Shown here: piece by piece, positions 11,663 to 59,239 of the stretch
How the letters are laid out: every line of letters begins with the position of its first letter
How positions within the stretch are numbered: the stretch's first letter is position 1
NCBI GenBank assembly: GCA_938027685.1
Contig: CALJAM010000026.1
Location: 62,001 to 126,000 of the forward strand
Direction of reading: 5' to 3'
DNA length: 64,000 nt
Source: an uncultured Bryobacteraceae bacterium
GTDB lineage: Bacteria; Acidobacteriota; Terriglobia; Bryobacterales; Bryobacteraceae
Notes under the pieces: model-generated
The model's database searches: none
Told to the model about the DNA's origin: nothing
The model's input: the letters and a program-made list of their open reading frames with translations, nothing else
Position numbers and translations under genes: made by a program

Positions 11663-13192
11663 ATGACGAGAAGGGTTATGTTGGGCCTTGTGGCCGCGCT
11701 CGCGGCGAACCCTCAACCGCGGGCCTCCCGCGAGATCACCGTTTCAGCGCTACGCGATAAGATCGCAGGCGGCTGGGCCGGACAAATGATCGGCGTCAGC
11801 TTCGGCGCGCCTACGGAGTTCCGTGCGCTCGGCCGCATCCTCGAAGAGGAACTGCCCCCGTGGCAGCCCGAGCGGGTGCGCAACGCGCTCGATCAGGACG
11901 ACCTCTACGTGGACATGACCCTTGCACGCGTCCTCGACGAGAAGGGCCTCGACGCCACCACGGAAGATTTCGCGCAAGCTTTTCGCGAAACGCGCTATCG
12001 GCTATGGCACGCCAACCTGGCGGCGCGCCGCAACCTGCGCCGGGGCATTCCGGCGGCGATGGCCGGGCACCCGCTTTACAATGCGCACGCCAACGATATC
12101 GACTTCCAGATCGAAGCCGACTTCATCGGCCTGATGTGTCCGGGCCTTTATCGGCAGTCCAATCGCATCGCCGAACGCGCCGGGCGGGTCATGAACTACG
12201 GCGACGGCATCTACGGGGGCATGTTCGTCTCCGGTATGTACGCGGCGGCCTTTTTCGAACGCGACCCGCAGCGCATCGTCGAAACGGGTCTGGCCTGTAT
12301 TCCCCCGCGCAGCTCCTACGCGCGTCTGATCACGGATGTGCTCACCTGGCGACGGCTCTATCCCGACGACTGGAAGAAAGTCTGGCGGCTCATCGAGGAG
12401 AAGTGGAACGTGAACGACCCCTGCCCAGCGGGCGCGCTGAGGCCGTTTAACATTGACGCCAAGCTCAACGGCGCCTACATTGCGCTGGGCCTACTCTATG
12501 GGGGCGGCGATTTCGGACGCACCATTGAGATCGCGACGCGCGCGGGACAGGACTCCGACTGCAACCCGGCCAGCGCCGGGGGCATCCTGGGCGTGATGCT
12601 GGGCTACGAAGCCATCCCCGAGTTCTGGAAGAGCGGCATCCCCGCGATCGCGCGCGAAAAGTTTCGCCACACGGACTACTCGTTCGAAAGCATCGTCGAG
12701 AGCACGCTGCGGCGGGCCGTCGCGCTCATCGAACGGACGGGTGGGAGACGCGAGGGTGATCGCCTGCTGGTCCGCACCGAAAGTCCCCGACCGCCCAAGC
12801 TCGAGCGTTGGGATTACGGCATCGTGGCGGAGCGCATCCCGGTCGAAGACTCCCGCTGGAGCTTCCGCGGGGCCTGGCGCACCGAGAAAGACCAGCGGCT
12901 GAGTTCCGAAGAAGGCGCCGAGGCCTCCATCCGTTTCCGCGGCACGGGGGCGATCGTCGTCGGACCGTACCTGGCCCAGGGCGGCCGGGCTGACGTTTTT
13001 CTCGACGGCAGGCTCCACCGTACCGTGGACGTCTGCTCCGATGAGGATGCAACCAAGCGTGACGAGGCCGTTTGGCACGTCTACGGCCTGAAGAACGCCG
13101 AGCACGAGGTCCGCCTGGTCGTCCGCGGCGAGCCTTACGAACCGTGCCGCGGTGCGGAGGTGGGTGTGAGCGCGCTGGTCGTCTTTCGCTGA
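11663..13192 (+). CDS. Exported ADP-ribosylglycohydrolase-family protein
   Basis: The 509-residue protein starts with a short signal-like segment (RRVMLGLVAALAA). Residues 25-360 match the ADP-ribosylglycohydrolase fold: GGWAGQMIGVSFG, DQDDLYVDMTL, NYGDGIYGGMF, and the metal-binding GQDSDCNPASAGGILGVMLGY. The last 130 residues form a beta-rich extension (IRFRGTGAIVVGPYLAQGG, ADVFLDGRLHRTVDV) resembling a carbohydrate-binding or galactose-binding-like domain. In this exported form the substrate is likely a glycoside or nucleoside-like compound rather than ADP-ribosyl protein (inference). Confidence 0.85.
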   Translation: MTRRVMLGLVAALAANPQPRASREITVSALRDKIAGGWAGQMIGVSFGAPTEFRALGRILEEELPPWQPERVRNALDQDDLYVDMTLARVLDEKGLDATTEDFAQAFRETRYRLWHANLAARRNLRRGIPAAMAGHPLYNAHANDIDFQIEADFIGLMCPGLYRQSNRIAERAGRVMNYGDGIYGGMFVSGMYAAAFFERDPQRIVETGLACIPPRSSYARLITDVLTWRRLYPDDWKKVWRLIEEKWNVNDPCPAGALRPFNIDAKLNGAYIALGLLYGGGDFGRTIEIATRAGQDSDCNPASAGGILGVMLGYEAIPEFWKSGIPAIAREKFRHTDYSFESIVESTLRRAVALIERTGGRREGDRLLVRTESPRPPKLERWDYGIVAERIPVEDSRWSFRGAWRTEKDQRLSSEEGAEASIRFRGTGAIVVGPYLAQGGRADVFLDGRLHRTVDVCSDEDATKRDEAVWHVYGLKNAEHEVRLVVRGEPYEPCRGAEVGVSALVVFR

Positions 13193-13261
13193 GGGCGCTC
13201 CCGGAGGTTGTCGGCGTTTACGCTCGCCGCACGGGACATGCCTCGGGCCGCTCGGCCGCCG

Positions 13262-14092
13262 CTACGGCGTCCGGCCCGTAGCGTCCAAGGGAGAATTGTC
13301 CCGACCGCCACGAGCGCCCGACCTGACCCGGCCGCGCAACAGCAGCCACACGCCTGCGGCGACGAGCCCCAGGGCGATCCATTGCTCCAGGTAGAAGGGG
13401 CCCATAGTGGGGTTCAGCTCGTCGTGGGCGCGCACGAACTCGATGAAGAAGCGCGCGCTCGAGTAGAGCACAAGATACAGGCCGAGGATCGCTCCGGGCG
13501 TGTGAGGTCGCAGGTAGCGGCGGTACAGAACGACGAAGATAACGGCCTCGGCCAGAGCTTCGTAAAGTTGCGTAGGATGCAGGGGACGCCCTAAAGGCGT
13601 TCCGAAAAGCTCATGGGAAGTGGGGTTGGTGAACGTGACCGCCCAGGGCAGCTGCGTCTCGATGCCCCAGCAGCAGCCCGCCGCGAAGCAACCCAACCGC
13701 CCGATGGCATGGCCGAGAGCGATGCCCGGCGCATAAACATCGGCCGCCTGCCACCCCGGCAGGCGCGTGCGCCGAATGTACCATGCGGCGACCAACAAGG
13801 CGGCGATAAGCCCCCCGTAGAAGATCCCGCCCGCCTGAAGCGTGGAGAGGCTGAAGATCTCCCGAGGTCGGGCCGAATAATACTTCCAGTCGATAAGGAC
13901 CAGCATGACCTTAGCGCCGACGATGCCCGCGATCGCCGAATAAATGCCGAGGTTGAGTATGAGATCGCGATTCAGGCCGGCCCGCCGGGCCAGCCGTCCG
14001 GCGAGCCAGAGGCCGCTTAGAAAGCCCACCGTCACAAGGAGGCCGTAGGTGGGCAGGAAGAAATCGCCGATCCGTACCAGTGAGGGCAACAT
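13262..14092 (-). CDS. lgt: Prolipoprotein diacylglyceryl transferase
   Basis: This inner-membrane enzyme transfers diacylglycerol to the lipobox Cys, the first step of lipoprotein maturation. The 276-residue multispanning protein has the Lgt signature GHAIGRLGCFAAGCCWG, HPTQLYEALAEAV and ARFFIEFVRAHDE. Its ATG follows directly after the lspA stop, so two successive steps of lipoprotein processing are encoded in one ileS-lspA-lgt operon. Substrates in this window include Pal and possibly one CHAT protein. Confidence 0.96.
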   Translation of the reverse strand: MLPSLVRIGDFFLPTYGLLVTVGFLSGLWLAGRLARRAGLNRDLILNLGIYSAIAGIVGAKVMLVLIDWKYYSARPREIFSLSTLQAGGIFYGGLIAALLVAAWYIRRTRLPGWQAADVYAPGIALGHAIGRLGCFAAGCCWGIETQLPWAVTFTNPTSHELFGTPLGRPLHPTQLYEALAEAVIFVVLYRRYLRPHTPGAILGLYLVLYSSARFFIEFVRAHDELNPTMGPFYLEQWIALGLVAAGVWLLLRGRVRSGARGGRDNSPLDATGRTP

Positions 14093-14581
14093 TCAGGCTT
14101 CCCGCTTACTCGCGTGCGAGCGCCACAGATCGAGTACGATCAGCGCGGCGCCAAGGCTGATGGCGCTGTCGGCGATGTTGAACGCCGGCCAGCGGAACCG
14201 TCCCAGGTAGAATTCGAGAAAATCGGTCACCTCGCCCCTGATCAGGCGGTCAAAGAGGTTTCCCAGCGCGCCCCCAAGCATGAGGGCGAGCGCCCAGTGC
14301 GAAAGGCCGGCCGGCTGCGGCGATCTCCACAGCAGCACCGCGAGCAGCACCACGGCCAGCACAGAAAGGCCGACCAGCAGAACCGACCGCCATCCCGGGT
14401 CCGCAGAGGCCAACAAACTGAATGCCGCACCGGGGTTGCGCGTATGGACGATGTGGAAGAAGCCGGGGATGACGACAATCGTTTCCCAGGGCGCCACGCG
14501 GCTCTCGATGAAGGCCTTGGTGAGCCGGTCCAACAAGAAGACGGCGCCTGCCGCCACCAGCGCCGCCCGGCGGAGATCCAT
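14093..14581 (-). CDS. lspA: Lipoprotein signal peptidase (signal peptidase II)
   Basis: The 162-residue aspartyl membrane peptidase cleaves prolipoprotein signal peptides after Lgt acts. It has four hydrophobic helices, DRLTKAF near the N-terminus, HTRNPGAAFSLL, and the catalytic regions GNLFDRLIRGEVTDFL and FNIADSAISLG, each with an Asp. It starts two bases after the ileS stop; the ileS-lspA pairing is a common bacterial arrangement. Confidence 0.96.
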   Translation of the reverse strand: MDLRRAALVAAGAVFLLDRLTKAFIESRVAPWETIVVIPGFFHIVHTRNPGAAFSLLASADPGWRSVLLVGLSVLAVVLLAVLLWRSPQPAGLSHWALALMLGGALGNLFDRLIRGEVTDFLEFYLGRFRWPAFNIADSAISLGAALIVLDLWRSHASKREA

Positions 14582-14582
14582 T

Positions 14583-17402
14583 TCAGCCCTTCAGAATCTC
14601 GGTGACTGCTTCCGCGCAAGCCGGGCAGATCGTCGGCCAGGCAGGATGGGCGCCAATCTCGGTCGAATATTTCCAGCAGCGCTCGCACTTGCGGCCGGCG
14701 GCCCGCTCCACCTCCACTTCCAGTTCTCCTGACTTCTGCTCCACAGAAACCTGGGAAACGATGAAGAGGGCGGGCAACTGGTCTGCGTATTCGGCCAGCA
14801 GCGGGTACCAATCACCATCGGCCCGCAGGAGCACGCGAGCCTCGAGCGGGGCTCCGATCGCCTTGTCCTGCCGTGCCTCCTCGAGCCGCTTCAGGACGGC
14901 GTCGCGAACCTCCAGCAGGCGATCCCAGTTGCGCGCCCGGAGACGGCTACGCTCGTCCAAACCCTCGGTCAGTTCCTGGGGCTCGGGGAACAGCGTAAGG
15001 TGCACGCTTTCGGGCGCGCCGGCGGGTTTGGTCAGGTGGCCCCAGACTTCTTCGGTCGTGAAGACCAGTATCGGCGCCAGCAGGCGCACCAGGGCGTAAG
15101 TGAGCCGCCACAACGCCGTCTGAGCGCTGCGCCGCGCGTGCGAGCGCGGCGCGGCCGTGTAAAGCCGGTCCTTGAGGACATCGAAATAAAGCGCGCTCAG
15201 ATCCGTGGTGGCGAAGTTGTAGGCCGCGTGATAAACGCGGTGGAAGGCAAACTCCTCGTAGAAGGCCCGGCAGCTCCGCACCAGCTCTTCGGCGCGGAAC
15301 AGGATCCACTGGTCCATCTCGAGCAACTCTTGCGCGGGCACCGCGTCACGCGCGGGATCGAAGTCCGCCAGATTGCCCAGGGCCCAGCGGAACGTGTTTC
15401 GCAGCTTGCGATATGCCTCGGCCAGCCGCGTCAGGATGGTGTCGGAAATGCGCGCGTCCTCGGTGAATTCGACCGAAGCCACCCACAGGCGCAAGACTTC
15501 GGCGCCATAGCGGTTGATGATCTCCTCCGGCGCAATGTAATTGCCGAGCGACTTGGACATGGCCCGGCCCTCGGCGTCCAGAATCCAGCCGTGGGAGGCG
15601 CATTGCCGGTAGGGCGCACGACCTCGCAGGCCCACCGCCACCAGCAGCGACGAGTGGAACCAGCCCCGATACTGATCGCCGCCCTCGATGTAGAGATCCG
15701 ACGGCCAAGGCAGGCCATAGGTCTCGTTCAGCACGGCCAGGTGGCTCGAGCCGGAATCGAACCACACGTCCAGGATGTCGTCCTCCTTCCGGAAGGATTG
15801 CCCGCCGCAGCGCGGACAACGCACCTCGGGGCCGAGCAGCTCAGCAGCACTGCGTTCGTACCAGACGTCTGCCGAGTGTTGCTCGAACAGATCCACGACA
15901 CGATCGAGGAGGCGGCGGTCGGTCAGGATCTCGCCGCAACTCTCGCAATAGAAGACGACGATCGGCACGCCCCAGACGCGCTGACGCGAGATGCACCAAT
16001 CGGGGCGGTTGGCGATCATATTCGCGATGCGCTCCTCGCCCCATGCCGGCAGCCACCGCACTTCGCGGATCGCCTCCAGGGCGCGCTGGCGCAACCCGTT
16101 GCGCTCCATGCCGATAAACCACTGCTCGGTGGCGCGGAAGATGGTGGGGTTGTGGCAACGCCAGCAGTGCGGGTAACTGTGCTCGACCGTCTCCTCGGCC
16201 AGCAGCGCCCCGCGTTCCCGTAAGAGGCTGGTCACGACCGGGTTCGCCTCCCAGACCGTTTTGCCGATGAGAACCTCGGGTAGAGTTCCTGCCGCTCCCT
16301 CGGCGTGGAAGAACTCGCCCGTGGGCCCTACGGGGCAATAGGTGGGGATGCCGTACTGCTGACATGTGAGGTAGTCCTCGTGGCCATGGCCCGGCGCCGT
16401 GTGCACCGCGCCCGTGCCCTGCTCCAGCGTGACGTACTCGGCCAGCACGCCCACCGAATCGCGCTCGATGAAAGGATGGCGGAAGACGGTTCCTTCCAAC
16501 TTGCGGCCGCTGATCCGCGCCAGCTCCTGCGCTCGACTCCAACCGCATTTTGCGGCTGTCGCCTCGACCAGCGGGGCGGCCACCAAATACACGCCGTCGT
16601 CGGTCTCGACAGCGGCATACTCGAAATCGGGGTGGAAGGCGATCGCCATGTTGGCGGGAATGGTCCAGGGCGTCGTAGTCCAGATCAGGCCCCAAACCCT
16701 GCGGCCCGCCAGCACAGGATCCAACCGGGCCGGATCCGAAACCAGCGCAAAGCGAACCCAGATCGAAGGGCTGGTGTGGTTCTCGTACTCGACCTCGGCC
16801 TCCGCCAGAGCCGTGCGGCAGTGAATGCACCAGTGAACGGGCTTCAGTCCTTTATACACGTAGCCGCGATCCAGGAACTCGACGAAGGCCCGGGCGATCG
16901 CCGCCTGGTACTGCGGACTCATCGTCAGGTAGGGATCGTCCCAGCGGCCGAAGACGCCCAGTCGCTTGAAGTCGCGGCGCTGTACCTCGACCCAGTATTC
17001 GGCGTAACGCCGGCACTCGCGCCGGATCTCGACCGGGCTCATTTGAGCCTTACGTGGTCCCAGTTCGCTGTCCACCTTGATTTCGATCGGCAGCCCGTGG
17101 CAGTCCCAGCCGGGCACGAAGGGGGCGTCAAAGCCCGCCATGCTCTTGGACTTGACGATGAAATCCTTAAGGATCTTGTTGAAGGCGGTGCCGGCGTGAA
17201 TCGTGCCGTTGGCGTAAGGCGGGCCGTCATGGAGCACAAACAGCGGTCGCCCTGCGCGTGCGCGGCGGATTTTTTCATATAACCGCTCGCTTTCCCATCG
17301 CTCGAGCATGCGCGGCTCCATGCGCGGCAGATCCGCCTTCATGGGAAACGACGTGCGCGGCAGGTTGACGGTCTTTTTCAAGTCCAGGCGATCCGGTTGC
17401 AT
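14583..17402 (-). CDS. ileS: Isoleucyl-tRNA synthetase
   Basis: The 939-residue class I enzyme charges tRNA-Ile and edits mischarged Val. Visible parts are the N-terminal [20 protein letters not shown], the [15 protein letters not shown] loop, the editing domain, and a C-terminal zinc knuckle (CERCWKYS and CPACAEAV). The HIGH element reads HAGT, with Thr at the fourth position; this is directly visible and unusual. The ATG at 17402 is chosen because family similarity starts there and a TATAAT lies just upstream. Longer in-frame starts carry no recognisable sequence. Confidence 0.96.
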
Positions 17403-17421
17403 CGTAGAGGGGGAGAAGACC

Positions 17422-17427
17422 ATTATA
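17422..17427 (-). promoter_or_regulatory. -10 box (TATAAT) upstream of ileS
   Basis: Perfect TATAAT on the minus strand ends 19 bases before the ileS ATG, giving a predicted leader of about 13 bases. The leader is C-rich and contains no Shine-Dalgarno. No -35 is obvious in the GC-rich upstream sequence. Confidence 0.5.
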
Positions 17428-17493
17428 GCGGGGCATCCGCGCGCGCCCGCTATCGGCGGCCGAATGGTGAGAAGGCCGGACTCCGATGCCCGC

Positions 17494-17880
17494 TCAAGCG
17501 CTGCCGGCTGCCATCCCCTTTTGCAAGGCCCGCTCCACGGCCTGACAAAGGTCCCTGGGAGTGAAGGGCTTGCTGAGGATGGCGTCTCCGGCAAAGTCGC
17601 CCTGGCCAGGCGATGCGGCCGACATGATGATCAGCTTAGGGGCCGGGTGTTCGCTTTGCACCTTCTGAAGCCATTCGCGATCCTCGACCTCGACGGTGGA
17701 GGCATCAACAAGCACCAATGAAATCGGATTCCTCGAGCGACGGCACAGGCGCGTGGCTTGCCGGAGGCTGCGGGCGCACAGCACTCGGTAGCCCTCCCGC
17801 GTCAGGATCACGCGGACGAGCTGAAGAATTTGCGGTTCTTGGTCGATCACTAGAATTACGGGAGTCGTTGCGTCAAGCAT
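17494..17880 (-). CDS. Stand-alone response-regulator receiver domain protein
   Basis: The 128-residue CheY-like protein has [15 protein letters not shown] (acidic pocket), LVLVDAST holding the likely phospho-acceptor Asp, LIIMSAAS, and the conserved Lys in [11 protein letters not shown]. No output domain is present. The ATG at 17880 is preferred over an upstream start at 17925 because GGGAG lies just before it and the fold starts there. No histidine kinase lies nearby, so its partner is unknown. Confidence 0.8.
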
Positions 17881-17969
17881 GACGGGCTCCCACGCCATCG
17901 CTTCCCCGGCAATCGCCAGTCTCATGCGCCCCTCGTACCCTTGCGTCTGCGGGGTCGGTTCGCCGGCGA

Positions 17970-18019
17970 GCGAGTCGCGAAAGCCGGCCGTCCCGCACCA
18001 GCCAGGCCCCGCGACTCGC
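17970..18019. repeat. Perfect 10-bp inverted repeat in the 342-base gene-free stretch upstream of the receiver gene
   Basis: GCGAGTCGCG (17970-17979) and CGCGACTCGC (18010-18019) are perfect inverted copies around a 30-base loop that itself holds GGCC/GGCC pairs. Next to it, minus-strand GGGGGCTTCGCCC would form a UUCG-capped stem. The stretch 17881-18222 contains no credible gene. The density of GC stems suggests a structured leader or small RNA, but no known riboswitch consensus was recognised. Confidence 0.45.
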
Positions 18020-18222
18020 TATGCCCCGGGCGAAGCCCCCGTCGCTACCGAGGTCACGGCCGCCAGGCTTAAGGCCCGGCTCCTCGCACCCGCCACCCTT
18101 CCCCGCTCAAGGGCGGCTGGCGTCCTTCGCAACCTCAATCGAGCGGAGTCCGTAAGAACCGTGATCGAGGGGCGCCCAACGTTACACGAAACCCACATAG
18201 TGGCCTGGGCTCCCCGTTTTTC

Positions 18223-20694
18223 TCAGAAAGGTTTGGCCCGCACGTAAAGCTGAAAGGGAGCCCAGTAGTACGGCTTGCTCCACGCGGTGCGACCGGCGAT
18301 CAGTGCGAGTTTCGCCGCCCGCAGGGCTTCCGCCGGGGAAAGGCCGCGCGCAAGCCCTTGATACAGTAGCCCCATCAGTTCGGCGGTGGAATCATCGTGA
18401 ACGTCCCATAAGCTCGCGATCACGTTGCTCGCACCGGCCAGCAGAAAGGCCCATGCAAAGCCCACAAGGCCTTCGCCCGCGTAGACGCGCGAGCCGGCGC
18501 CGCGGCATGCCGATAGCGTCACCAGACGAGCGCCTAACGGCTCCTGGATGACCTCGCGCGCGTACAACTTCCATCCCTGCGCTTCCGGCGCCAGGACGAC
18601 GGCCGAATCCAGAGGGTTCTCCGCGCTGGCCTCCGCGTGGGCCGCGAAATGGATGAGAGAGAACCGACGGGGCCGGCTGGCTCGATACACGGAGGGACGG
18701 GCTTCCTTGCCTCGGACCACATGAACGACGCCGGGAGGCAGAGCCTGCTCGATGCTGCGGATCTCCTGCTCGACCGCAGGCAGACGCGGGAAACGCCGGC
18801 CGACCGGCGGGGGATCACCGATCAACAGCAGGCTCTGGCCGCCCGTCGCCCGCTCGTCGGAGTGTTGCGCCAACAAGGCCAGCGACGGCGAAACGCACAG
18901 TACGACATCCTCGATCCAATACCGCGAGCGGCCTTCGCCCACGACCAGCGTCTCCAAATTGATCTCGTGCAAAGGCCCGTCCGGAACAACGATCACTCGC
19001 CTCCGTCCGGCCAGCTCGCTTTTGAGAGGTGCCGCTACGGCCTGGTAAAGTTCGCGCGGGGCACGTGCTCCCTCCAAGAAATCACGCATCCCCTCTGCCG
19101 CGGTCCGCGTCGCGTGCGCCATGCGTCGGATCTCCCCTCCCGGGGCGAGACTGAACGCCTTGATGGTACGCTCGCGCACGACCCACGCGAACGAGCGCTT
19201 CGGCGCGACCCAGTAGGAAACCAACGCTGCACCGAGGCGTTCCGCCAGACGCTGGTAGGTTGCGGCGCCCGGAACCGCGCCGCTGCTGCCCAGGCCCAGC
19301 TTCGCCAGCAGCACACGTGCGCGGCTCGCTTCCGCCACCTCGAGGGCGCGCTCCACTTTACCCGAGCTCATCAGGTAGTCTACGTACTCCTCGTACAGCC
19401 GACGCGCACGCGCTTGAAAGCTGAGCTTCCATTCTTCGCGGCTCAGGGTGGTCCGCCTTTGCTCGAGCAATCGCGCCGCCCGGGCGAAGTGCTCTTCGGC
19501 CTCGGCCCAGCGCCGGCTTGCCCCGCAGAGCGCGGCGAGCCCCGCGTGCGCGCTCCACACCACGTCGGGTTCCTCCGCCGGCGCCGCTGACGCAAGCACG
19601 TCGCGGAAGCCTTGTTCGGCCTCTTGCGCCTGGCCTCGCGCGGCGAGGATCCGCGCCCGCCACAGCCGCGACCATATTCCCGCATCGCGCGTCGGAACAC
19701 GCGGAGCGAGCGCGAGCGCCTCGCGATTCCACGACTCCGCCTCCTCCAGGGCGCCTCGATCCAGCGCCAGCTCCGTCAATCGGTTCAGCCACATCAAGGT
19801 GAAATAGGCAGTCTCCAGACGCCGGGAAACGGCCAGCGCCTCGCGGTAACAGGCGGCCGCGGCCGCGTGCTCATGTTGAAGGTGGCGGACCTCGCCCAGG
19901 TTGCCCAGCCAGACCTGCTGCGCGATGGGATCCCCCAATTGGCCGAGCAGCCGGGTAGCCTCGGCCAGCAACACCGCGGCGCGTTCGTAATCGCCCAAGC
20001 CTGCGTGGCAGCGGCCGAGATTGCCCAAAGTGTTGGCATAGAAACGCCGCGCTCCCGCCGCCTGCGCCAGCCGCAAGGCCTCTTCGAAGTACGGAATGGC
20101 CTCATCGTAGCGGGAACTGTTGATGCGCGCGAAGCCGCGATTGCCGTTGGCGGCGGCTTCCAGATACGGATCCCCTATCCGCCGCGCAACCTCCAACGCA
20201 TCGCGATAGGCGGCATCCGCGCTGTCGAACTCCCCGCATCGCGCCAGGGTGGATCCGCGCCAAAGCTGCACTTCGGCTGCTAGATCGGGCTGATCGACGC
20301 GGCGGGCAGCTTCCAGCGCCTCGTCCAAAAGCTGGCGCGATCCGAGGTAGTCGGCTAGCAGAAAGCGCGCCCGACCCAGGCACATCAGCCGGCGCGCTCG
20401 GTGAACAGCGAATGCCTCCCCGGCCGGCGGCTCCTCCTCGAGCAGGTCGAGCACCTCGCGCCCTTTGCCCTGATACGCGAGGATCTGCGCCCGCAGCAAC
20501 CGAAACTCCCAGTGGGAGGGCGTCGCGGGTCGTTTACGCCACCGCGCCCACCCCTGGTCCGCTAGCGCCAGTGCTCGGTTCAGATCGCCTTGGCGCATCT
20601 GGTGGCGGACGCGGTCCGCCAGCGCCCGTGCCGATCGTTCGCTTTCGAGCGCTCCGCAGCCGCCGAATCCCAAAAGCTGGAGGCCGACGACAAT
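18223..20694 (-). CDS. TPR-CHAT caspase-like protein (module A)
   Basis: A protein of about 823 residues. The N-terminus has a hydrophobic export-like segment ending in LLGFGGCG, a possible lipoprotein box. About ten TPR-like helical repeats follow, residues 25-430 (for example ANGNRGFARINSSRYDEAI). The last 300 residues are a CHAT domain: IVVPDGPLHEINLETL, the candidate catalytic His in HFAAHAEAS near 686, and Cys in LSACRGAG near 730, then GEGLVGFAWAFLLAGASNVIASLW. The start is uncertain: no ATG, GTG or TTG fits the end of the preceding gene. An ATT at 20694 and an upstream GTG at 20811 are alternatives. It is the last gene of the sigma/anti-sigma operon. Confidence 0.88.
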   Translation of the reverse strand: MVVGLQLLGFGGCGALESERSARALADRVRHQMRQGDLNRALALADQGWARWRKRPATPSHWEFRLLRAQILAYQGKGREVLDLLEEEPPAGEAFAVHRARRLMCLGRARFLLADYLGSRQLLDEALEAARRVDQPDLAAEVQLWRGSTLARCGEFDSADAAYRDALEVARRIGDPYLEAAANGNRGFARINSSRYDEAIPYFEEALRLAQAAGARRFYANTLGNLGRCHAGLGDYERAAVLLAEATRLLGQLGDPIAQQVWLGNLGEVRHLQHEHAAAAACYREALAVSRRLETAYFTLMWLNRLTELALDRGALEEAESWNREALALAPRVPTRDAGIWSRLWRARILAARGQAQEAEQGFRDVLASAAPAEEPDVVWSAHAGLAALCGASRRWAEAEEHFARAARLLEQRRTTLSREEWKLSFQARARRLYEEYVDYLMSSGKVERALEVAEASRARVLLAKLGLGSSGAVPGAATYQRLAERLGAALVSYWVAPKRSFAWVVRERTIKAFSLAPGGEIRRMAHATRTAAEGMRDFLEGARAPRELYQAVAAPLKSELAGRRRVIVVPDGPLHEINLETLVVGEGRSRYWIEDVVLCVSPSLALLAQHSDERATGGQSLLLIGDPPPVGRRFPRLPAVEQEIRSIEQALPPGVVHVVRGKEARPSVYRASRPRRFSLIHFAAHAEASAENPLDSAVVLAPEAQGWKLYAREVIQEPLGARLVTLSACRGAGSRVYAGEGLVGFAWAFLLAGASNVIASLWDVHDDSTAELMGLLYQGLARGLSPAEALRAAKLALIAGRTAWSKPYYWAPFQLYVRAKPF

Positions 20695-21401
20695 TACGGA
20701 TAATCGTGGCCGTCCGCCTCCAGGGCGGCGACCTCGAGCTCCCCCTCGGCGGGGCTGCCGAGCTTCAGACGCAGCATGGTGAGGCCTTGTCGGTACGGTG
20801 CAGCCGACCACTCGCAGAAGTATACCCGCCCTAAGTCGGCATGGTCCAGGTAGCCGTGATCCCACTCGTCGAACTTGAGCAACTCGTGCCTGGCCAGCGA
20901 GTGGCGAATACAGCCCCGGTTTTCACGCAGCTCCTTGCGGGCATTCCGCAGGTCTGCGTATTTCGAGGCGGCGCGGCTGAGCTCGTGATCGATTGCGATC
21001 ACGAGTTCAGCACCGCCCAGCGACAGGCCGGTGAAACCGCTGCCTGTGCTGTCGATCTCCGGCAAGCCGCTGCGCGTATGAACGATCGTCAGCGCTGCGA
21101 CGATTTCTTCCACACGCAGCACGTCGACCACGTTCAAGCCACGCACGCGCACTTTGAGCTCGGTGCGGCGCTCCCCGGCCCCGATTTCGAAGCCCGCCGC
21201 CGAGCACTCGGCCTCCTTGTAACTGACCAGCGGGCGCCCGGTTTCCGGGTCGCTCAGGCTGTACGGTCCCGAACGGACGCCGGCCCGACCTCCGATGCTC
21301 GGCAGCACGCAGGCGCAGTGATCGGCAACAGAGCTAGACACCGGCCTACGGAGGTACCCGGCGATGGCGAGAGCATGGCCGTGATAAATGAAGCGCGGCA
21401 T
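20694..21401 (-). CDS. Unknown 235-residue protein between anti-sigma and CHAT genes
   Basis: I do not recognise a firm family. It begins FIYHGHALAIAGYLRRP and has LPSIGGRAG, a beta-rich middle (TELKVRVRGLNVVDVLRVEEIVAAL), and STGSGFTGLSLGGAELVI, reminiscent of choice-of-anchor-type beta-sandwich proteins. The C-terminal half is charged (KYADLRNARKELRENRG) and ends in a region with DEWDHGYLDHADLG. No signal peptide or membrane helix is seen. AGGAGG lies 13 bases before the ATG. Its position between anti-sigma and CHAT genes makes it a candidate substrate, sensor or partner of the CHAT protein (inference from synteny). Confidence 0.6.
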   Translation of the reverse strand: MPRFIYHGHALAIAGYLRRPVSSSVADHCACVLPSIGGRAGVRSGPYSLSDPETGRPLVSYKEAECSAAGFEIGAGERRTELKVRVRGLNVVDVLRVEEIVAALTIVHTRSGLPEIDSTGSGFTGLSLGGAELVIAIDHELSRAASKYADLRNARKELRENRGCIRHSLARHELLKFDEWDHGYLDHADLGRVYFCEWSAAPYRQGLTMLRLKLGSPAEGELEVAALEADGHDYP

Positions 21402-21418
21402 AGAACGAACCGTTCCTC

Positions 21419-22072
21419 CTATTCGACGCGGATCACGAACTCAAAGCGGGCGATCTCTGCCCCGGGATCGGCCGCGCTTCGCAGCACGAGCGTGTAGTTT
21501 CCCGAGCGAAGCAAAGCCCGCGGCAGCAGCAGATGAAGCGGTTCGCCGGGGCGCGCAGGAGCGCTCGCCTCGACCGTCGCCGAGCGGCGACCGGAGGCCT
21601 CCCAGAGTTCGCAGCGATAGGCCTCGTGAGCGGCCGTGGGCGGCAAGTCGACCGCAAGACCGAGAAACTGCCGACCGGCGGGCAACACGATCTGCTGCTC
21701 TTCGCCGCGAACTACCGGGCGCAGGAACACCGCCGTGTAGCCTTGCGGCGCGCGCAACGCGGCGATCTCCCGTTCCAACGCCGGAATGCGCACCACCTTC
21801 CAGTAAAGTGCAAACGCCCCCAGGACTAGGCCCGCGGCCAGCGCCAGTGCCCGAAGCCACAAACGGGCAGCGGGCGACCGCTGCCTGCCGCCTTCTTGCT
21901 CACGCAACAGCGCACGGAGGTTCACCAGGGCGGCCGCGCAGGCGCGCACATCGCGGGCGCACTCGACGCACTCGAAAAAGTGCTCCTCGAAGGCTTCGCA
22001 CTCCTGCCGGCTGAGTTCGCCGAGCACGTATCGCTCGGCCGCCTGGCTGGCAACCGCTTCCTGATGGTCCAT
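21419..22072 (-). CDS. Membrane-anchored zinc-finger anti-sigma factor (module A)
   Basis: 217 residues. The N-terminal 60 residues form a ZAS-type anti-sigma domain with HxxxCxxC in EEHFFECVECARD. One transmembrane helix (LWLRALALAAGLVLGAFALYW) follows, then a coiled segment, then a beta-rich extracytoplasmic domain (YRCELWEASGR, LHLLLPRALLRSGNYTLVL). It would hold the adjacent sigma factor at the membrane and sense a periplasmic signal. The ATG at 22072 is eight bases past the sigma stop; the longer frame upstream overlaps sigma codons and lacks family similarity. Confidence 0.82.
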   Translation of the reverse strand: MDHQEAVASQAAERYVLGELSRQECEAFEEHFFECVECARDVRACAAALVNLRALLREQEGGRQRSPAARLWLRALALAAGLVLGAFALYWKVVRIPALEREIAALRAPQGYTAVFLRPVVRGEEQQIVLPAGRQFLGLAVDLPPTAAHEAYRCELWEASGRRSATVEASAPARPGEPLHLLLPRALLRSGNYTLVLRSAADPGAEIARFEFVIRVE

Positions 22073-22079
22073 GGGCGCC

Positions 22080-22718
22080 CTACCTATCCGTGATCTCCGC
22101 GGCGGGAGACGTTTCACCGCCGGCACCTGGCCGGCCGCCGCTCGGCTGGGGCCCGAGGCCCTGTTCGGTTTCCAGTGCGCGTCTGAGCCGCCTTTTGGCG
22201 CGCCAAAGCACGACGCGGAGATAGTCCGCACTGAGGCCTAGTTCCGAGCAGACCTGTCGGCGATCCCGCTCCTCCAGGAACACCAGCCGCAGCGCCTTTT
22301 GTTCCAGGTGGCTCAATTGCTCGAGCGCTGCCCCGACCGCCTGCTTCAGCTCTTCCCGCACCAGGCCCTCGTCGAGCAACATGCGGTAACCGGGCACCGA
22401 GCCAAGCTGACTCGCCCCGGACGGCTGCTCCTTCCTAAGATATTCCGCTAAGACCCGACGACAGACCGAGTACACGAAAGATCCCAGCCGATCCGGTCTC
22501 TCCAGCCCACCCTGGCGCCGCAATAGCTGGAAGACACGCAGAAACGTCTCCTGCGTGACGTCCTCGACCAACCTCGAGTTCCCGGTCCGCGCGAGGACCA
22601 CCAGCCGGATCAATTGCGCGAAATGGCGGACGAAGTGCGCTTCGGCCGAGGCCTCGCCGGCAAGAAGCCTCTCCAGATACTCGGCGTCGAAAACCGGCTC
22701 GCTGAGCGGCGCTCCCAA
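22080..22718 (-). CDS. ECF-type sigma-70 family factor (module A)
   Basis: About 212 residues. Region 2 includes FAQLIRLVVLARTGN, LVEDVTQETFLRVFQLL and LGSFVYSVCRRVLAEYLRK. Region 4 is a helix-turn-helix in EQKALRLVFLEERDRR, VCSELGLSADYLRVVLWRAKRRLRRAL. There is no sigma-1.1 or region 3. Two TTG starts are possible: 22760, and 22718, which lies 12 bases after a TATACT box (22736-22731) and is preferred here. It is the first gene of a four-gene operon with anti-sigma, the unknown protein and CHAT. Confidence 0.85.
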   Translation of the reverse strand: MGAPLSEPVFDAEYLERLLAGEASAEAHFVRHFAQLIRLVVLARTGNSRLVEDVTQETFLRVFQLLRRQGGLERPDRLGSFVYSVCRRVLAEYLRKEQPSGASQLGSVPGYRMLLDEGLVREELKQAVGAALEQLSHLEQKALRLVFLEERDRRQVCSELGLSADYLRVVLWRAKRRLRRALETEQGLGPQPSGGRPGAGGETSPAAEITDR

Positions 22719-22804
22719 GGCGTGCGCTTCAGTATATCGGTGGACCAGGGTCCTGCGCAAGGGCGGAATCCCAGCCCGTCGCTGTCAGGTTAGCGCGATC
22801 GCCA

Positions 22805-22839
22805 CCGGAGCCCCGGGGCCGCGACAGGCGGGGCTCCGG
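22805..22839. repeat. 11-bp inverted repeat between sigma A and clpX
   Basis: CCGGAGCCCCG and CGGGGCTCCGG form a perfect 11-bp inverted repeat with a 13-base loop. It lies about 90 bases upstream of the sigma gene start and about 165 bases before the clpX promoter, in the 22761-23092 divergent intergenic stretch. No T-tract follows, so it is more likely an operator or structured leader than an intrinsic terminator. Confidence 0.45.
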
Positions 22840-23004
22840 AGGCCGCCGACGTCGGCCGCGTGCCCGTGCTCCGGGCTGTGGTTCAGCTTGGCCAACAACC
22901 GTCGTAACCGGTCACGCCGCCTCGCCCCATTCCGGCGACCGGACGACCTTGAGCGGCGGGCTCAACCCGCGCCTCCGCGGTGAACAACAATAGCGCGCAC
23001 CTCG

Positions 23005-23033
23005 TTGCCACCCGCCCGGGATCCGGCGATAAT
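23005..23033 (+). promoter_or_regulatory. Sigma-70-type promoter of clpX
   Basis: TTGCCA (23005-23010) and GATAAT (23028-23033) are separated by exactly 17 bases. Transcription would start near 23040, giving a leader of about 50 bases before the clpX GTG at 23093. Confidence 0.6.
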
Positions 23034-23092
23034 AGAAGCAGGCCAATGACCATGATGCGGCCCGCCCAAGGGAGCGGCCGGGGAGAACGAAG

Positions 23093-24352
<1,260 letters not shown>

Positions 24353-24489
24353 AGACCCGCGGGCCGGGATGCTGCGGCGCCCGGAGCCGGCCGGTCCCGG
24401 TCGCCCGGGGGGCGGGACGCTAAAGCGTTTAAAGGCCGGCGAGCAGGTGCTCCGACAGCAACGGGGCGGGCCGACGCAGAGTAGCAATC

Positions 24490-26907
24490 ATGCTTTCCTC
24501 CAAGGAGAAATCCGAAACCCGGCGTTTGCCGATGATGCCCGTGCGGGACGTGGTGATCTTCCCGCACATGATGACGCCCTTCGTCGTCGGGCGCGAATCC
24601 AGCGTCCGCGCGCTCGAGGAGGCGCTGGCCACCGACAAGAAGATTTTTTTGGCCACCCAGCACGACGCCACGGTGGACGAGCCGCGGCCGGACGAGATCT
24701 ACCAGGTCGGGACCATCGTCAACATCGTGCAGAGCCTGCGCCTGCCCGACGGCAATATCAAGGTGCTGGTGGAGGGTCTCGAACGGGCCCGCATCGTTTC
24801 GGTCACCGACGAAGAGGGTTTCTTCCGCGCTGTCGTGCGGACCTTCCAGTTCCGGATCGAGCCCGGCCCTCAGTTGGATGCCCTCATCGCGCGCGTGACC
24901 TCGCTGTTTGAGCAGTACGTCAAGCTCAGCCAGAACGTCAACTACGAGACGATGGTCGCAGCCATCCGGGTCGATGATCCCGGTCGCTTGGCCGACACCG
25001 TCGCCGCCAACCTCCAGCTCACCATCGAGGAAAAGCAGGAGTTGCTGGAGATTTTCGATCCGATCGAGCGGTTGAATCGCATCGCGGACATGCTCGACAT
25101 CGAGATCGAAAAACTCAACGTGGACCGCGCCATCCAGGGCCGCGTCAAGCGTCAGATGGAACGCGCCCAGAAAGAGTATTACCTCAACGAGAAGATCAAA
25201 GCCATCCAGAAGGAACTGGGGCGCGGCGAGAAGAGCGAGATCGACGAGCTGAAAAAGAAGATCGAAGCGGCCGGCATGACCAAGGACGCTTACGAGAAGG
25301 CCATGGCGGAGCTCAGGCGGCTGGAAAACATGCCGCCCATGTCGGCCGAATCCACTGTCTCGCGCAACTATCTGGAGTGGCTGCTGGCCGTGCCCTGGAA
25401 GCAGCGCACGCGTGAAATCCGCGATCTGAAATACGCCGAAAAGGTTCTCGACGAAGATCACTACGGGTTGGAGAAAGTCAAGGAACGCATCCTCGAGTTC
25501 CTGGCCGTCCGGCGCCTGGTCAAGCAGCCCAAGGGCTCGATCCTCTGCTTCGTAGGCCCTCCCGGCGTAGGCAAGACCTCGCTGGGCATGTCCATCGCTC
25601 GCGCCACCGGGCGCAAGTTCGTGCGCCTTTCGCTGGGCGGGGTGCGCGACGAAGCTGAGATCCGCGGCCACCGCCGCACCTACATCGGCGCACTGCCCGG
25701 GCAGATCATCCAGATGATGCGCAAGGCCGGCACGCGCAACCCGGTCTTCATGCTGGATGAAGTGGACAAGATGTCCATGGACTTCCGCGGCGATCCCTCC
25801 GCCGCGTTGCTCGAGGTGCTCGATCCGGAACAGAACTACATGTTCATGGATCACTACCTCGACGTGGAGTACGACCTGAGCCAAGTCTTCTTCATCTGCA
25901 CGGCGAACGTATTGCACACGGTGCCCCCGGCCCTACAGGACCGCATGGAGGTGATCCGCCTTTCCGGCTACACCGAGCCGGAAAAGCTCGAGATCGCCAA
26001 GCGCTTCCTGGTGCCCAAGCAGATGAAGCAGACCGGTCTGACGCCGCAGATGGTCGAGTTCACCGAGGAGGGCCTGCTGCGGATCATCCGCTACTACACG
26101 CGCGAGGCGGGCGTGCGCAACCTGGAGCGCGAGATCGGCAACATCTGTCGGAAGGTGGCGCGCGCGGTGGTCAACGCGCGCAGCAGCAAGCCGCGCCAGG
26201 ACCCGCCCAAGGTCATCGTCGATGCCGAAGCCGTCACCCGCTTCTTGGGGCCGGAGAAGTTCCGCGATCTGGAGGCCGAGAAGCGTAACGAGATCGGCGC
26301 TGCCGTGGGACTGGCCTGGACCGAGGTCGGCGGCCAGCTGCTCACCACGGAAGCCATCATCATGGACGGCAAGGGCAAGCTGATCACCACCGGCAAGCTG
26401 GGCGACGTTATGCAGGAATCGGCGCAGGCCGCCATGAGTTACATCCGCTCGCGGGCGCAGATGCTGGGGCTGCCGCGTGATTTCTACCGCCACATCGACA
26501 TACACGTGCACGTGCCCGAAGGCGCCATCCCCAAGGACGGGCCTTCGGCCGGAATCACTATCGCCACGGCCATCGTGAGCGCGCTCACCAAAGTTCCCGT
26601 GCGCGGCGACGTGGCCATGACCGGGGAGATCACGCTGCGCGGGAAGGTCCTGCCCATCGGCGGCCTGAAGGAGAAACTTTTGGCGGCGCATCGCCACGGC
26701 ATTGTGGAGGCCGTGCTGCCGAGGGGCAACGAGAAGGACTTGCCCGACATCCCCGAAAACATCCGCAATCAGCTGAAGCTGCACTTCGTCGAGTCCATGG
26801 ACGAGGTGCTCAAGATCGCACTGGAGCGGGAGCTGCCCGCCGTGCCGCTGCCCGCTCCCCCGCCGGTGGACATGGTTGTCCAGGCGAGCGAGGAGCCGCT
26901 GCACTAA
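24490..26907 (+). CDS. lon: ATP-dependent protease Lon
   Basis: Homohexameric cytoplasmic serine-lysine protease for damaged and regulatory proteins, 805 residues. The N-terminal LON substrate domain starts [19 protein letters not shown]. Coiled helices follow, then AAA+ with Walker [12 protein letters not shown] near 355 and Walker B in [10 protein letters not shown]. The C-terminal protease domain has catalytic Ser in [10 protein letters not shown] near 685 and Lys in [13 protein letters not shown]. It follows clpX at 137 bases, a usual proteostasis grouping. Confidence 0.97.
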
Positions 26908-26958
26908 GGTTTCGGGTCGCGCTTCGGCGAGCCGGGCGCGACCCAAGGAGTGACTGCC

Positions 26959-28482
26959 TTGTCGAACGAAGTCCTGAACCGCGAAAACAAGTCCAATCCG
27001 ACTCCGACGCAGGAGACCCCACCGGCTCCTGCTCCTGTGGCGCCCCCGCAAGAGAAGCCTGCCCAGACGGGCGCGGTCGAGGCCAGGCCCGCGCCGCCCG
27101 ATGCGCGGCCGGCGTCCGGCTCCGCTGCCGAAACCAAGACGGCCGAGCCTGCCCCCGCCCAGCCTACACAAGCCAAGCGCAAGCAGGCCGAAAAGCCGGC
27201 CAACAAGGAAGCCGGCACAACCACCGCGCCTTCACTCGATCTCAAGGTCCTCAAGGACATGAGCATCCAGCAGCTCAACCAGATCGCCAAGGATCTGGGC
27301 ATCACGGGAGCTGCCGGCATGCGCAAGCAGGAGCTCATCTTCAAGATCCTCCAAGCGCAGGCGGAAAAAGCCGGGCTCATCTTTTCCGAGGGCGTGCTCG
27401 AGTGCCTGCCTGACGGCTTCGGTTTCCTGCGGGCGCCCGAGTACAACTACCTGCCCGGGCCCGACGACGTCTACGTCTCGCCCTCTCAGATCCGCCGGTT
27501 CGATCTGCGCACCGGCGACACCATCTCGGGCCAGATCCGCCCGCCCAAGGAGGGCGAACGCTATTTCGCCCTCATCAAGGTCGACGCGATCAACTTCGAG
27601 CCGCCTGAAGAGGCGCGCACCAAGATCTTCTTCGACAACCTCACCCCGCTCTATCCGAATCAGCGCATCCGCCTGGAGACTACCCGCGACAACTATTCCG
27701 GTCGCATCATGGACCTGCTGACGCCCATCGGCAAGGGCCAGCGCGGATTGATCGTGGCCCCGCCGCGCACCGGCAAGACCATGCTCCTGCAATCCATCGC
27801 CAACTCGATCACCACCAACCACCCTGAGATCATCCTCATTGTTCTGCTCATTGATGAGCGGCCCGAAGAGGTGACCGACATGCAACGCTCGGTCAAGGGC
27901 GAGGTCATCTCTTCGACGTTCGACGAGCCGGCCTCGCGGCACGTGCAGGTGGCCGAGATGGTGATCGAGAAAGCCAAGCGCCTGGTCGAGCACAAGCGCG
28001 ACGTAGTCATCCTGTTGGACTCGATCACGCGGCTGGCGCGGGCTTACAACACCATCGTGCCGCCCTCGGGCAAGGTGCTCTCGGGCGGCGTGGACTCGAA
28101 CGCCCTGCAGCGGCCTAAGCGCTTCTTCGGCGCCGCGCGCAACGTGGAGGAGGGCGGTTCGTTGACCATCATCGCGACCGCGCTGATCGACACCGGCAGC
28201 CGGATGGACGACGTGATCTTCGAAGAGTTCAAAGGCACGGGCAACATGGAGATCCACCTGGACCGCCGTCTGGTGGACAAGCGCATCTTCCCGGCCATCG
28301 ACATCCACAAGAGCGGAACGCGCAAGGAAGAGTTGCTCCAACCCAAGGAGGAACTGAATCGCGTCTGGGTGCTCCGCAAGGTGCTCGCGCCCCTGTCGCC
28401 TGTCGAGGCCATGGAACTGCTTCTGGACAAACTCTCGAAGACGCGCAATAACGCGGAGTTCCTGGCCTCCATGAGCAGTTGA
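26959..28482 (+). CDS. rho: Transcription termination factor Rho with a long N-terminal extension
   Basis: RNA-dependent ATPase helicase that terminates transcription; about 507 residues against about 420 in E. coli. Residues 1-85 are a Pro/Ala/Lys/Glu-rich disordered extension. After it come the Rho_N helical domain ([15 protein letters not shown]), the cold-shock RNA-binding domain ([19 protein letters not shown]), and the ATPase core ([58 protein letters not shown]). TTG at 26959 has AAGGAG eight bases upstream; the GTG at 26950 overlaps that element and is less likely. Confidence 0.95.
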
Positions 28483-28515
28483 GCGCGGTCGGCGTCACGT
28501 TCCGGATACGCGGGC

Positions 28516-28737
28516 ATGGCGGGCAAACGAACGGGTTGGGCGTTGGTGGCCCGCTACAGCGGGCTCGCGTTCCTGCTGCCTGCCACCACCTTCGCGGGCT
28601 ACGTGATCGGCTGGCTGCTCGATCGCCTCTTTCGGACCCGCTTCCTCTACTTGGTCTTCCTGCTGTTCGGCATAGCGGGCGGCTTCATGGAACTGTTGCG
28701 TACCCTGCGGCGGGATATCGAGGATGAGCGAAGCTGA
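28516..28737 (+). CDS. atpZ: AtpZ-type F0F1-associated small membrane protein
   Basis: The 73-residue protein has two transmembrane helices (YSGLAFLLPATTFAGYVIGW and FLYLVFLLFGIAGGFMELL) joined by LLDRLFRTR, the AtpZ/AtpI family pattern. The family helps assemble the c-ring or transport Mg2+ for ATP synthase. It opens the atp cluster and its end overlaps the next gene by 14 bases. Confidence 0.8.
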   Translation: MAGKRTGWALVARYSGLAFLLPATTFAGYVIGWLLDRLFRTRFLYLVFLLFGIAGGFMELLRTLRRDIEDERS

Positions 28738-29110
28738 GGCGTTGCGCGTCGAGCAGGCGCTCGTGCGGATCCGGCGATTGATGGCGGGCCTGGCCCTCGC
28801 AGGCACGGCTGTGACGCTCGCGATCAAAGGCCCAGCTTGGGGGGGCGGCTTCCTGGCCGGGGCGCTGGCCGCCATCGCCAACTTTCGCTGGCTGGAACAG
28901 ATCGCCGGCGGCCTGGCCTCGGGGCGCGGCGCCAGGCGCGTGCGCTGGGCCGTTCTGTTCGGCATGCGTTACGTGGTCTTGGGCGCGGCCGCTTATGTTA
29001 TAGTGAAACTGTTTGGCATCAGCGGGCTGGCGATCCTGGCGGGCCTGCTTGTAGCCGCCGCCGCCGTGCTGGCGGAAATGCTGTACGAACTTCTCCATGC
29101 AGGAACATGA
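28724..29110 (+). CDS. atpI: ATP synthase subunit I-like membrane protein
   Basis: The 128-residue protein has four hydrophobic helices (LMAGLALAGTAVTLAI, WGGGFLAGALAAIANFRWL, VLFGMRYVVLGAAAYVIV, LAILAGLLVAAAAVLAEML). The pattern and position before atpB fit the AtpI/ATP-synthase-I family. It overlaps atpZ upstream and atpB downstream (14 bases each), indicating translational coupling. Confidence 0.75.
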   Translation: MSEAEALRVEQALVRIRRLMAGLALAGTAVTLAIKGPAWGGGFLAGALAAIANFRWLEQIAGGLASGRGARRVRWAVLFGMRYVVLGAAAYVIVKLFGISGLAILAGLLVAAAAVLAEMLYELLHAGT

Positions 29111-29837
29111 ACTCTGGTTGACGCGCCTGTTTAACGACCATCTGGCCGGCGTCGCCAACACCATCCTGAGCTGGGTCGGACTGGAAGCGCGCGAGCCCTC
29201 CCGGCCGTGGACGAACTTCATCACGATGCAGATCCTGGTCGCGGCGATCATCATGGTGTTGTTCGCATGGCTGAGGCGCCGGCTCTCGGTAGACCGCCCC
29301 GGTAAGCTCCAGCACTGCTTCGAAATCATTTACAACTTCCTGCGCGGCCAGGCCGACGAAGTAGTGGGGCACGCGGGGCGCGCTCATCTGCCTTTCTTCG
29401 GCACCATCTTTCTTTTCATCCTGTTTTCCAACCTCTTGGGGATTGTTCCCGGCTTCGAATCCCCGACCATGTTCCCCTACGTGCCGGCGGGCTGTGCGAT
29501 TGCCGCCTTTCTCTTCTACCATTGGGCGGGCATTCGGGCGCACGGCCTGGGTCGTTACCTGGCGCACTTCGCCGGGCCGGTGCCGCTGATGGCGCCGATC
29601 ATGATCCCCATCGAGGTGGTCAGTCATCTTGGCCGGCCACTTTCTCTCACCGTGCGTCTTTTCGCCAACATGTACGCCGGCGAGCAGGTGACGCTGGTCT
29701 TCATCAGCCTGTCGTATCTGGTGGTGCCGGCCCTGTTCATGGGTCTGCACGTGTTCGTGGCGTTCCTTCAGGCTTATGTTTTCGCGCTGCTGACCATGGT
29801 GTACGTCGCCGGGGCGGTCGCGCACGAGGAGCATTGA
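29097..29837 (+). CDS. atpB: F0F1 ATP synthase subunit a
   Basis: Stator proton-channel subunit in the inner membrane, 246 residues with five or six helices. The essential Arg lies in RPLSLTVRLFANMYAGEQV, and PFFGTIFLFILFSNLLGIVPGF is typical of subunit a. It sits in the order atpZ-atpI-atpB-atpE. The F1 and b/delta genes are not in the window, so the synthase is encoded in at least two loci. Confidence 0.96.
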   Translation: MQEHELWLTRLFNDHLAGVANTILSWVGLEAREPSRPWTNFITMQILVAAIIMVLFAWLRRRLSVDRPGKLQHCFEIIYNFLRGQADEVVGHAGRAHLPFFGTIFLFILFSNLLGIVPGFESPTMFPYVPAGCAIAAFLFYHWAGIRAHGLGRYLAHFAGPVPLMAPIMIPIEVVSHLGRPLSLTVRLFANMYAGEQVTLVFISLSYLVVPALFMGLHVFVAFLQAYVFALLTMVYVAGAVAHEEH

Positions 29838-29869
29838 TCCCGGATTGATCGCTCTCCAGTGTGAGCCCG

Positions 29870-29895
29870 TCCCGCCGGACGCTGCGAGGGCGGGA
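29870..29895 (+). other. Intercistronic hairpin before atpE
   Basis: TCCCGCC (29870-29876) and GGCGGGA (29889-29895) are perfect inverted copies with a 12-base loop in the 97-base gap between atpB and atpE. No U-tract follows. It could protect or process the downstream mRNA and help overexpress subunit c. Confidence 0.35.
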
Positions 29896-29934
29896 ACCAC
29901 CTCCTGGGAGCAATTTCATAGATAGGAGAGACGC

Positions 29935-30243
29935 ATGACAGCCAGGAAGGTAGTCTTGCTGCTGGTGCTGCTAGCCTTTGCAGCGCCGGTCTTCGCCCAG
30001 GCGCCGGGCGCCGGGCAGCCCGATACCAAGTGGATCTGGATCACATCCGGATTCTCCATGGCCATCGCTTCGGCCGGCTGCGGTATCGCGCAGGCGAAAG
30101 CGGTAGCAGCTTCTGCGGAGGCGATGGGACGCAATCCGGGAGCGGCGGCTGCCATCCGCTTCGCCCTGGTGCTCGGCCTCGTTCTGATCGAATCGTTGGC
30201 CTTGTACACCCTGGTGATCATCTTCGCCAAGGTGACCGCGTGA
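29935..30243 (+). CDS. atpE: F0F1 ATP synthase subunit c with N-terminal signal-like extension
   Basis: The 102-residue c-ring subunit is longer than the usual 75-85 because of an N-terminal segment ending VFAQAPG, which looks like a cleavable signal peptide. Helix 1 contains AGCGIAQAKAVAASAEAMGRNPGA and helix 2 has LGLVLIESLALYTLVIIF with the ion-carrying Glu. Gln in helix 1 and Glu-Ser...Tyr in helix 2 match part of the Na+-binding set known from Ilyobacter, but Leu replaces the key Thr, so H+ is equally likely. AGGAGA lies a few bases before the ATG. Confidence 0.93.
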   Translation: MTARKVVLLLVLLAFAAPVFAQAPGAGQPDTKWIWITSGFSMAIASAGCGIAQAKAVAASAEAMGRNPGAAAAIRFALVLGLVLIESLALYTLVIIFAKVTA

Positions 30244-58461: not shown

Positions 58462-58520
58462 CGTTCCCTCCCCCGGCGCTCCGTGACAGGCTACGCCAGG
58501 TTGGCGCCTCCCTTTGAACC

Positions 58521-59216: not shown

Positions 59217-59239
59217 GAGCCAAGCCCGGCGAACACCGT

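Follow-up and report, generated by a model that had tools for sequence, protein, structure and literature searches.

A conserved sigma, anti-sigma and TPR-CHAT cassette of Acidobacteriota with a predicted internal start codon and a possible role in envelope signaling

In envelope pathways of the RseA/RpoE type, in which DegS takes part, a single-pass anti-sigma factor with an outer domain is placed under periplasmic control. A link between CHAT proteins and sigma factors is also already known, from type III-E systems of clustered regularly interspaced short palindromic repeats (CRISPR) and from DdvA of Myxococcus; the sigma factor DdvS is active once DdvA has been inactivated, although the inducing signal is unknown (PMC4374960), and it controls a defence island with a cyclic-oligonucleotide-based anti-phage signaling system (CBASS) and CRISPR (PMC12288465). 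Here we describe a four-gene cassette in a stretch of 64,000 nucleotides (nt) from an uncultured Bryobacteraceae bacterium (contig CALJAM010000026.1, positions 62,001 to 126,000), which we refer to as the window. The cassette occupies positions 18223-22760 and encodes, in order on the minus strand, a sigma factor of the extracytoplasmic function (ECF) type, a membrane anti-sigma factor with a zinc motif (ZAS), a protein of 235 amino acids (aa) and a TPR-CHAT protein. We propose, tentatively and at a little below an even chance, that these genes make up a self-contained envelope signaling unit that amplifies itself and is gated by the action of CHAT on ZAS.

A preliminary description of this DNA had listed these four genes, and open reading frame (ORF) calls together with family models bear it out. 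The sigma factor (22080..22760, minus strand, as are all cassette features given below) scores 65.7 bits with TIGR02937 (cut-off 42.9) and 33.5 bits with Sigma70_r2; its start codon is uncertain, TTG at 22760 being the first candidate. The ZAS protein (21419..22072) matches zf-HC2 with 23.6 bits against a cut-off of 22.2 and shows, by eye, one membrane helix followed by an outer C-terminal domain. The H, C and C of its zinc motif are invariant in 74/74 relatives, and an Arg-Gly pair in the outer domain is conserved in 63/75 and 64/75 relatives, respectively, which makes this pair a candidate cut site only.

The arrangement recurs well beyond the window. When a sample of 396 Acidobacteriota genomes was searched with the 235-aa protein alone, a homolog was found in 18 other genomes; ZAS was present and CHAT lay directly downstream of the homolog at all 18 loci, and the full order of sigma, ZAS, 235-aa protein and CHAT was found at 16 of them. 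A family profile of the 235-aa protein detected it in 76/299 genomes of the class, and nearly all neighborhoods retrieved from these 76 genomes had the full four-gene order. A second set of loci came from a separate scan of named genomes, made with a closer alignment set; its 80 loci, all from Acidobacteriota (Edaphobacter, Granulicella, Occallatibacter, Terracidiphilus, Bryobacterales and others), were reduced to 68 by the removal of 12 duplicates, and 63 of the 68 had the full order, the five exceptions being four contig ends and one locus from which CHAT was missing (L239). Given that the 235-aa protein, used as the sole query, led to a CHAT neighbor in 18/18 cases and that the full order held elsewhere in 63/68, the arrangement is not a product of chance. 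No fifth gene was common to the cassettes across these neighborhoods, apart from local synteny among close relatives, and at L142 (5078-6001) a relative of the 235-aa protein stands as an orphan, with no CHAT beside it, in a genome where a complete cassette is present as well. Judged by gene order, the four genes form a conserved unit of (soil) Acidobacteria, of which we found no description in the open-access literature searched. Conserved synteny and retained catalytic residues in CHAT homologs were two of the three tests that the preliminary description had set for its proposal, and both were observed.

The residues in question are the His and Cys of the CHAT dyad, present in 78/78 and 79/79 aligned homologs, respectively (His743, codon at 18637..18639, and Cys787, codon at 18505..18507, in the window protein). 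The CHAT domain matches PF12770 with 193.8 bits against a curated cut-off of 24 (E 6e-57), and family models found TPR and CHAT domains only. The AlphaFold model has a mean predicted local distance difference test (pLDDT) score of 89.6; among solved structures, Foldseek placed DdvA first (E 1.9e-15), then Csx29 and then separase, and a profile restricted to the CHAT domain again returned DdvA as its top match, with the aligned His and Cys retained in DdvA. By dyad and fold, the protein is a predicted protease with putative activity. One may postulate instead that CHAT is a non-proteolytic periplasmic sensor or scaffold whose binding stabilizes or destabilizes the ZAS-sigma complex, given that the top fold match belongs to an anti-sigma factor and not to a named protease and that the TPR superhelix is a binding module. 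The dyad is, however, invariant in about 80 homologs whose identity to the window protein is no more than 29-40%, and we consider the scaffold explanation improbable.

As for its location, CHAT has a hydrophobic segment with a lipobox-type Cys behind it at 71/77 loci (20656..20703 in the window, where it reads LSVIVVGLQLLGFGGC). Because this segment ends in a lipobox, CHAT is predicted to lie on the periplasmic side of the inner membrane, in agreement with what had been suggested from the window alone.

The 235-aa protein (20694..21401) of the window matched no family in Pfam and none in PADLOC, and a pointer to its nature came from its relatives, 12/17 of which matched the choice-of-anchor P model NF040603. 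Relatives scored 39.5, 39.0 and 28.6 bits against a cut-off of 27 and the window copy scored 11.8, so that the latter is best described as a probable distant relative of choice-of-anchor P. Its AlphaFold model is compact and all-beta (pLDDT 88.7, with only residues 151-153 below 50), and no relative with a solved fold was found for it at E<=1e-3 in the PDB or in BFVD, a collection of viral structures. Neither a signal peptide nor a surface anchor was found at the N-termini of the family, in which the domain begins directly; export was ruled out on the ground that no signal peptide was seen, and the protein should be cytoplasmic. These observations bear on the suggestion that CHAT cleaves the 235-aa protein as a Csx30-like partner of sigma or anti-sigma. 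The two genes are the most tightly linked pair of the cassette, overlapping and almost always found together, and Csx29, which is close in fold to our CHAT model, cleaves Csx30, an inhibitor of CASP-sigma (PMC10028731). Against this, the 235-aa protein lacks a signal peptide and would therefore occupy another compartment than a CHAT protein predicted to lie outside the membrane, its compact model has almost no stretch of low confidence, and the cassette already has a dedicated anti-sigma factor in ZAS. The protein is thus an unlikely CHAT substrate; the preliminary description had offered it as one, and we regard the Csx30-like explanation as quite improbable.

The preliminary description had placed four consecutive genes with short gaps or overlaps; the order holds, whereas CHAT does not simply follow the 235-aa gene but is predicted to begin inside it. 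In most loci, the reading frame of CHAT is -1 relative to that of the 235-aa gene. The hydrophobic segment of CHAT sets in close to the stop codon of the 235-aa gene, often without a start codon in its vicinity. Of these loci, 45/52 in the first set (7.6 expected) and 43/45 in the second set (4.1 expected) had a -1 frame that stayed open upstream over 66 codons or more, expectations being obtained by synonymous shuffling of the codons of the 235-aa gene, a control internal to each sequence; as these loci are related by descent, the counts are of non-independent events. At control loci with CHAT in another frame, the frame was open that far in 1/17 and 4/9 loci of the first set and in 4/16 loci of the second. 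As a rule, the open frame starts with ATG, GTG or TTG, to which the base just ahead of a conserved Cys or Trp codon contributes, and a Shine-Dalgarno-like stretch often precedes this internal start codon. The base before the conserved Cys codon was A in 17/36 loci (4.8 expected), often supplied by rare codons such as CTA, GTA or ATA. Taken together, the alignments indicate that CHAT starts inside the 235-aa gene and that the base of its start codon is selected at a site that is synonymous for that gene.

For the window copy, GTG at 20865 is the likely start and yields a CHAT protein of 880 aa (18223..20865) and a dual-coding overlap of 172 nt (20694..20865); GTG at 20811 is an alternative. Across loci, the dual-coding region kept open amounts to about 70-100 codons, and the extra N-terminal stretch that it adds to CHAT is basic and not conserved in sequence. 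The lack of a start codon close to the signal segment of CHAT had suggested a programmed -1 frameshift fusing the 235-aa protein to CHAT; this was rejected in view of a -1 frame open far upstream in nearly all loci and of the selected start, as was re-initiation at non-standard codons at the stop of the 235-aa gene. A same-strand overlap that is this long, and that is conserved together with a start codon under selection, stands out by itself as unusual.

The regions 5' of sigma contain a recurring pair of boxes, which was resolved to GAAACG-N16-CACTA; its upstream box contains AAC, as ECF promoters typically do. At a spacer of 16, the 68 cassettes of the first set had 17 occurrences upstream of sigma, 15 divergent and 23 between sigma and ZAS, and other spacers from 12 to 20 had 0-1 occurrences each; in the second set, spacers of 15 and 17 were single cases. 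The exact motif at spacer 16 was present in 39/68 cassettes of the first set and 43/65 of the second. Because it sits upstream of sigma, upstream of ZAS or divergently in about 60% of cassettes, sigma appears to drive its own cassette from this predicted promoter. Genome-wide counts, which are of exact copies only such that mismatched sites elsewhere would escape them, placed both copies in one genome (G591) and 2/3 copies in two others (G147, G103) at the cassette, and searched genomes without a cassette had 0-2 copies. One lineage (f91) differed, with 7-14 exact copies per genome.

These patterns are also what would be expected if CHAT and the 235-aa protein were output, induced to act on envelope targets, while the outer domain of ZAS senses the signal and general site-1 and site-2 proteases cut ZAS. 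This is the main rival to our proposal. A sigma-type promoter lies directly before ZAS, the 235-aa gene and CHAT in 23 cassettes of the first set and 28 of the second; nearly all exact promoter copies are at the cassette in some genomes, so its product must matter; and ZAS possesses an outer domain of its own. The known sigma-linked CHAT proteins nonetheless act upstream of sigma (Csx29, PMC10028731; DdvA being the anti-sigma factor itself), and CHAT stays with ZAS even at two loci where no sigma was detected. We consider this output explanation unlikely, albeit the most serious of the alternatives.

Promoter targets elsewhere are varied, and most are no recognized defence genes. Recurring targets in the f91 lineage (L183, L188, L287, L291; L191, L195, L290, L294) are PilZ-type proteins and a family of 69-72-aa proteins, the latter always 21 nt downstream. 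The motif precedes an MliC-type lysozyme inhibitor at one locus (L033, 2490-2873), with the same arrangement downstream of CHAT, by eye, at four others (L034, L037, L038, L039); this target hints at envelope or lysozyme stress. At L108 (2795-3504) it precedes a phage-type lysozyme (PF00959, 166 bits). In a single genome it stands 21 nt before a CapV-like patatin (L184, 1545-2561, the same as L299, 4042-5061), which matches PADLOC phospholipase effectors (E 1e-73) and beside which no cyclase gene was seen. A small conserved protein (xxFVAKP...) without a Pfam match is encoded at divergent promoters (L103, L105, L110, L111, L116, L117, L123, L146, L147), and related long proteins of about 740 aa with an NPNYFGNL motif, which match no Pfam family, follow the promoter motif at L031 (about 2142) and L104 (771-2972).

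The reading that we prefer, in which CHAT gates sigma through ZAS, can be put as follows. ZAS would keep the ECF sigma factor bound at the inner membrane, and TPR-CHAT would be exported and anchored in the periplasm, where its TPR superhelix may sense a signal or a partner. CHAT would then act on ZAS at its outer domain, the most likely mode being a cut close to the membrane, and thereby lead to the release of sigma; the freed sigma would transcribe from GAAACG-N16-CACTA promoters before its own gene, before ZAS, the 235-aa gene and CHAT, and at neighboring genes, raising both the protease and its inhibitor. As a component of the response, the 235-aa protein would remain cytoplasmic, probably made in amounts coupled to those of CHAT, as CHAT initiates within its gene. 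The sequences themselves show that the unit and its dyad are conserved, that CHAT has an export segment and an internal start and that the promoter is directed at the cassette, the window's own copy excepted. Cleavage of ZAS by CHAT is plausible, and we infer it, as we do the signal and what the 235-aa protein does. The DdvA-like fold supports a partnership between CHAT and a membrane anti-sigma factor. Further support comes from a second set of sigma, ZAS and CHAT genes in the window, module B (57823-61687, minus strand), which has the order CHAT, sigma, ZAS, lacks the 235-aa protein and encodes a CHAT protein with a Sec-type signal peptide; no CHAT genes other than its own and that of the cassette were found in the genome.

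This interpretation must be made cautiously, however, as several observations weigh against it. The conserved Arg-Gly of ZAS may be structural; 55-90 aa precede the hydrophobic segment of CHAT in many loci, which complicates a lipoprotein assignment; and the two loci mentioned above (L025, L026) have a rearranged cassette of 235-aa protein, CHAT and ZAS, with sigma not detected nearby. The cassette of the window lacks the exact motif, and its matches with two mismatches are at chance level; since members of its family often carry the motif with one mismatch, its sigma factor may read a variant. Finally, a sigma target such as CHAT can be pure output. The preliminary description had envisaged a stand-alone protease-gated switch, of which the synteny and the periplasmic side of CHAT stand, whereas CHAT as input only does not; because the CHAT gene is itself a predicted sigma target, CHAT is probably at least as much output as input. 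That all parts hold jointly, namely an anchored caspase-like protease that cuts a separate anti-sigma factor, a self-amplifying switch and a dual-frame start kept across Acidobacteriota, is possible but doubtful. If true, the main target of the sigma factor would be the cassette itself and about 70-100 codons would be read in two frames; the proposal also makes testable whether CHAT serves as an ECF site-1 protease, at which position the anti-sigma factor is cut and what TPR-CHAT senses outside the membrane.

Adjoining the cassette in the window are divergent ORFs that read, by eye, as clpX and lon (23093-26907, plus strand), a neighborhood not common to the other loci compared. Farther away lies a decaheme cytochrome of the OmcA/MtrC family (41537-43582, plus strand; 511 bits against 209). 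Assignment of the four cassette proteins to phage defence was rejected, as PADLOC returned only weak generic TPR and BovA matches.

Among known systems, the closest is DdvA/DdvS of Myxococcus xanthus (PDB 8rot, 8rw5), closer than the Craspase and CalpL systems to which the cassette had been likened at the outset. Both combine an ECF sigma factor, a membrane anti-sigma factor and a TPR-CHAT fold, and the cassette CHAT, with its DdvA-like fold, likewise adjoins an ECF sigma gene. In DdvA, however, the chain that bears CHAT is the anti-sigma factor itself, whereas ZAS and CHAT are separate genes in every cassette locus; the cassette thus falls outside the definition of DdvA, and it adds a beta protein in whose gene CHAT starts. 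With the type III-E CASP, or Craspase, system it shares a TPR-CHAT protease whose gene is linked to a sigma factor and its inhibitor, as well as a similar fold (8eey, E 4e-15), but the cassette CHAT carries a membrane or lipobox segment. As had been proposed, the operon stands apart from CRISPR: no CRISPR-like repeats were found in positions 12000-30000 of the window, PADLOC gave no cas match among the four proteins, and no Csx30 match was found for the 235-aa protein in Pfam or PADLOC; with no adjoining array and no Csx30 found, it lies outside the definition of Craspase. CalpL/CalpT/CalpS resembles it in placing sigma release under protease control, but CalpL is a Lon/SAVED protein that answers cyclic oligoadenylate (PMC11417357, PMC12751052), and the family models found no Lon protease with a SAVED sensor in the TPR-CHAT protein of the cassette. 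Relatives of the 235-aa protein match choice-of-anchor P, but the protein itself differs in having no signal peptide or anchor. The RseA/RpoE-type site-1 protease pathways, discussed also in PMC10028731, have their counterpart in a ZAS protein that is likewise single-pass with an outer domain, with the difference that the candidate site-1 protease, CHAT, is encoded within the cassette. Set beside these systems, the pairing of CHAT and sigma described here is widespread, independent of CRISPR and split into separate proteins, with a strict dyad and a defined predicted promoter.

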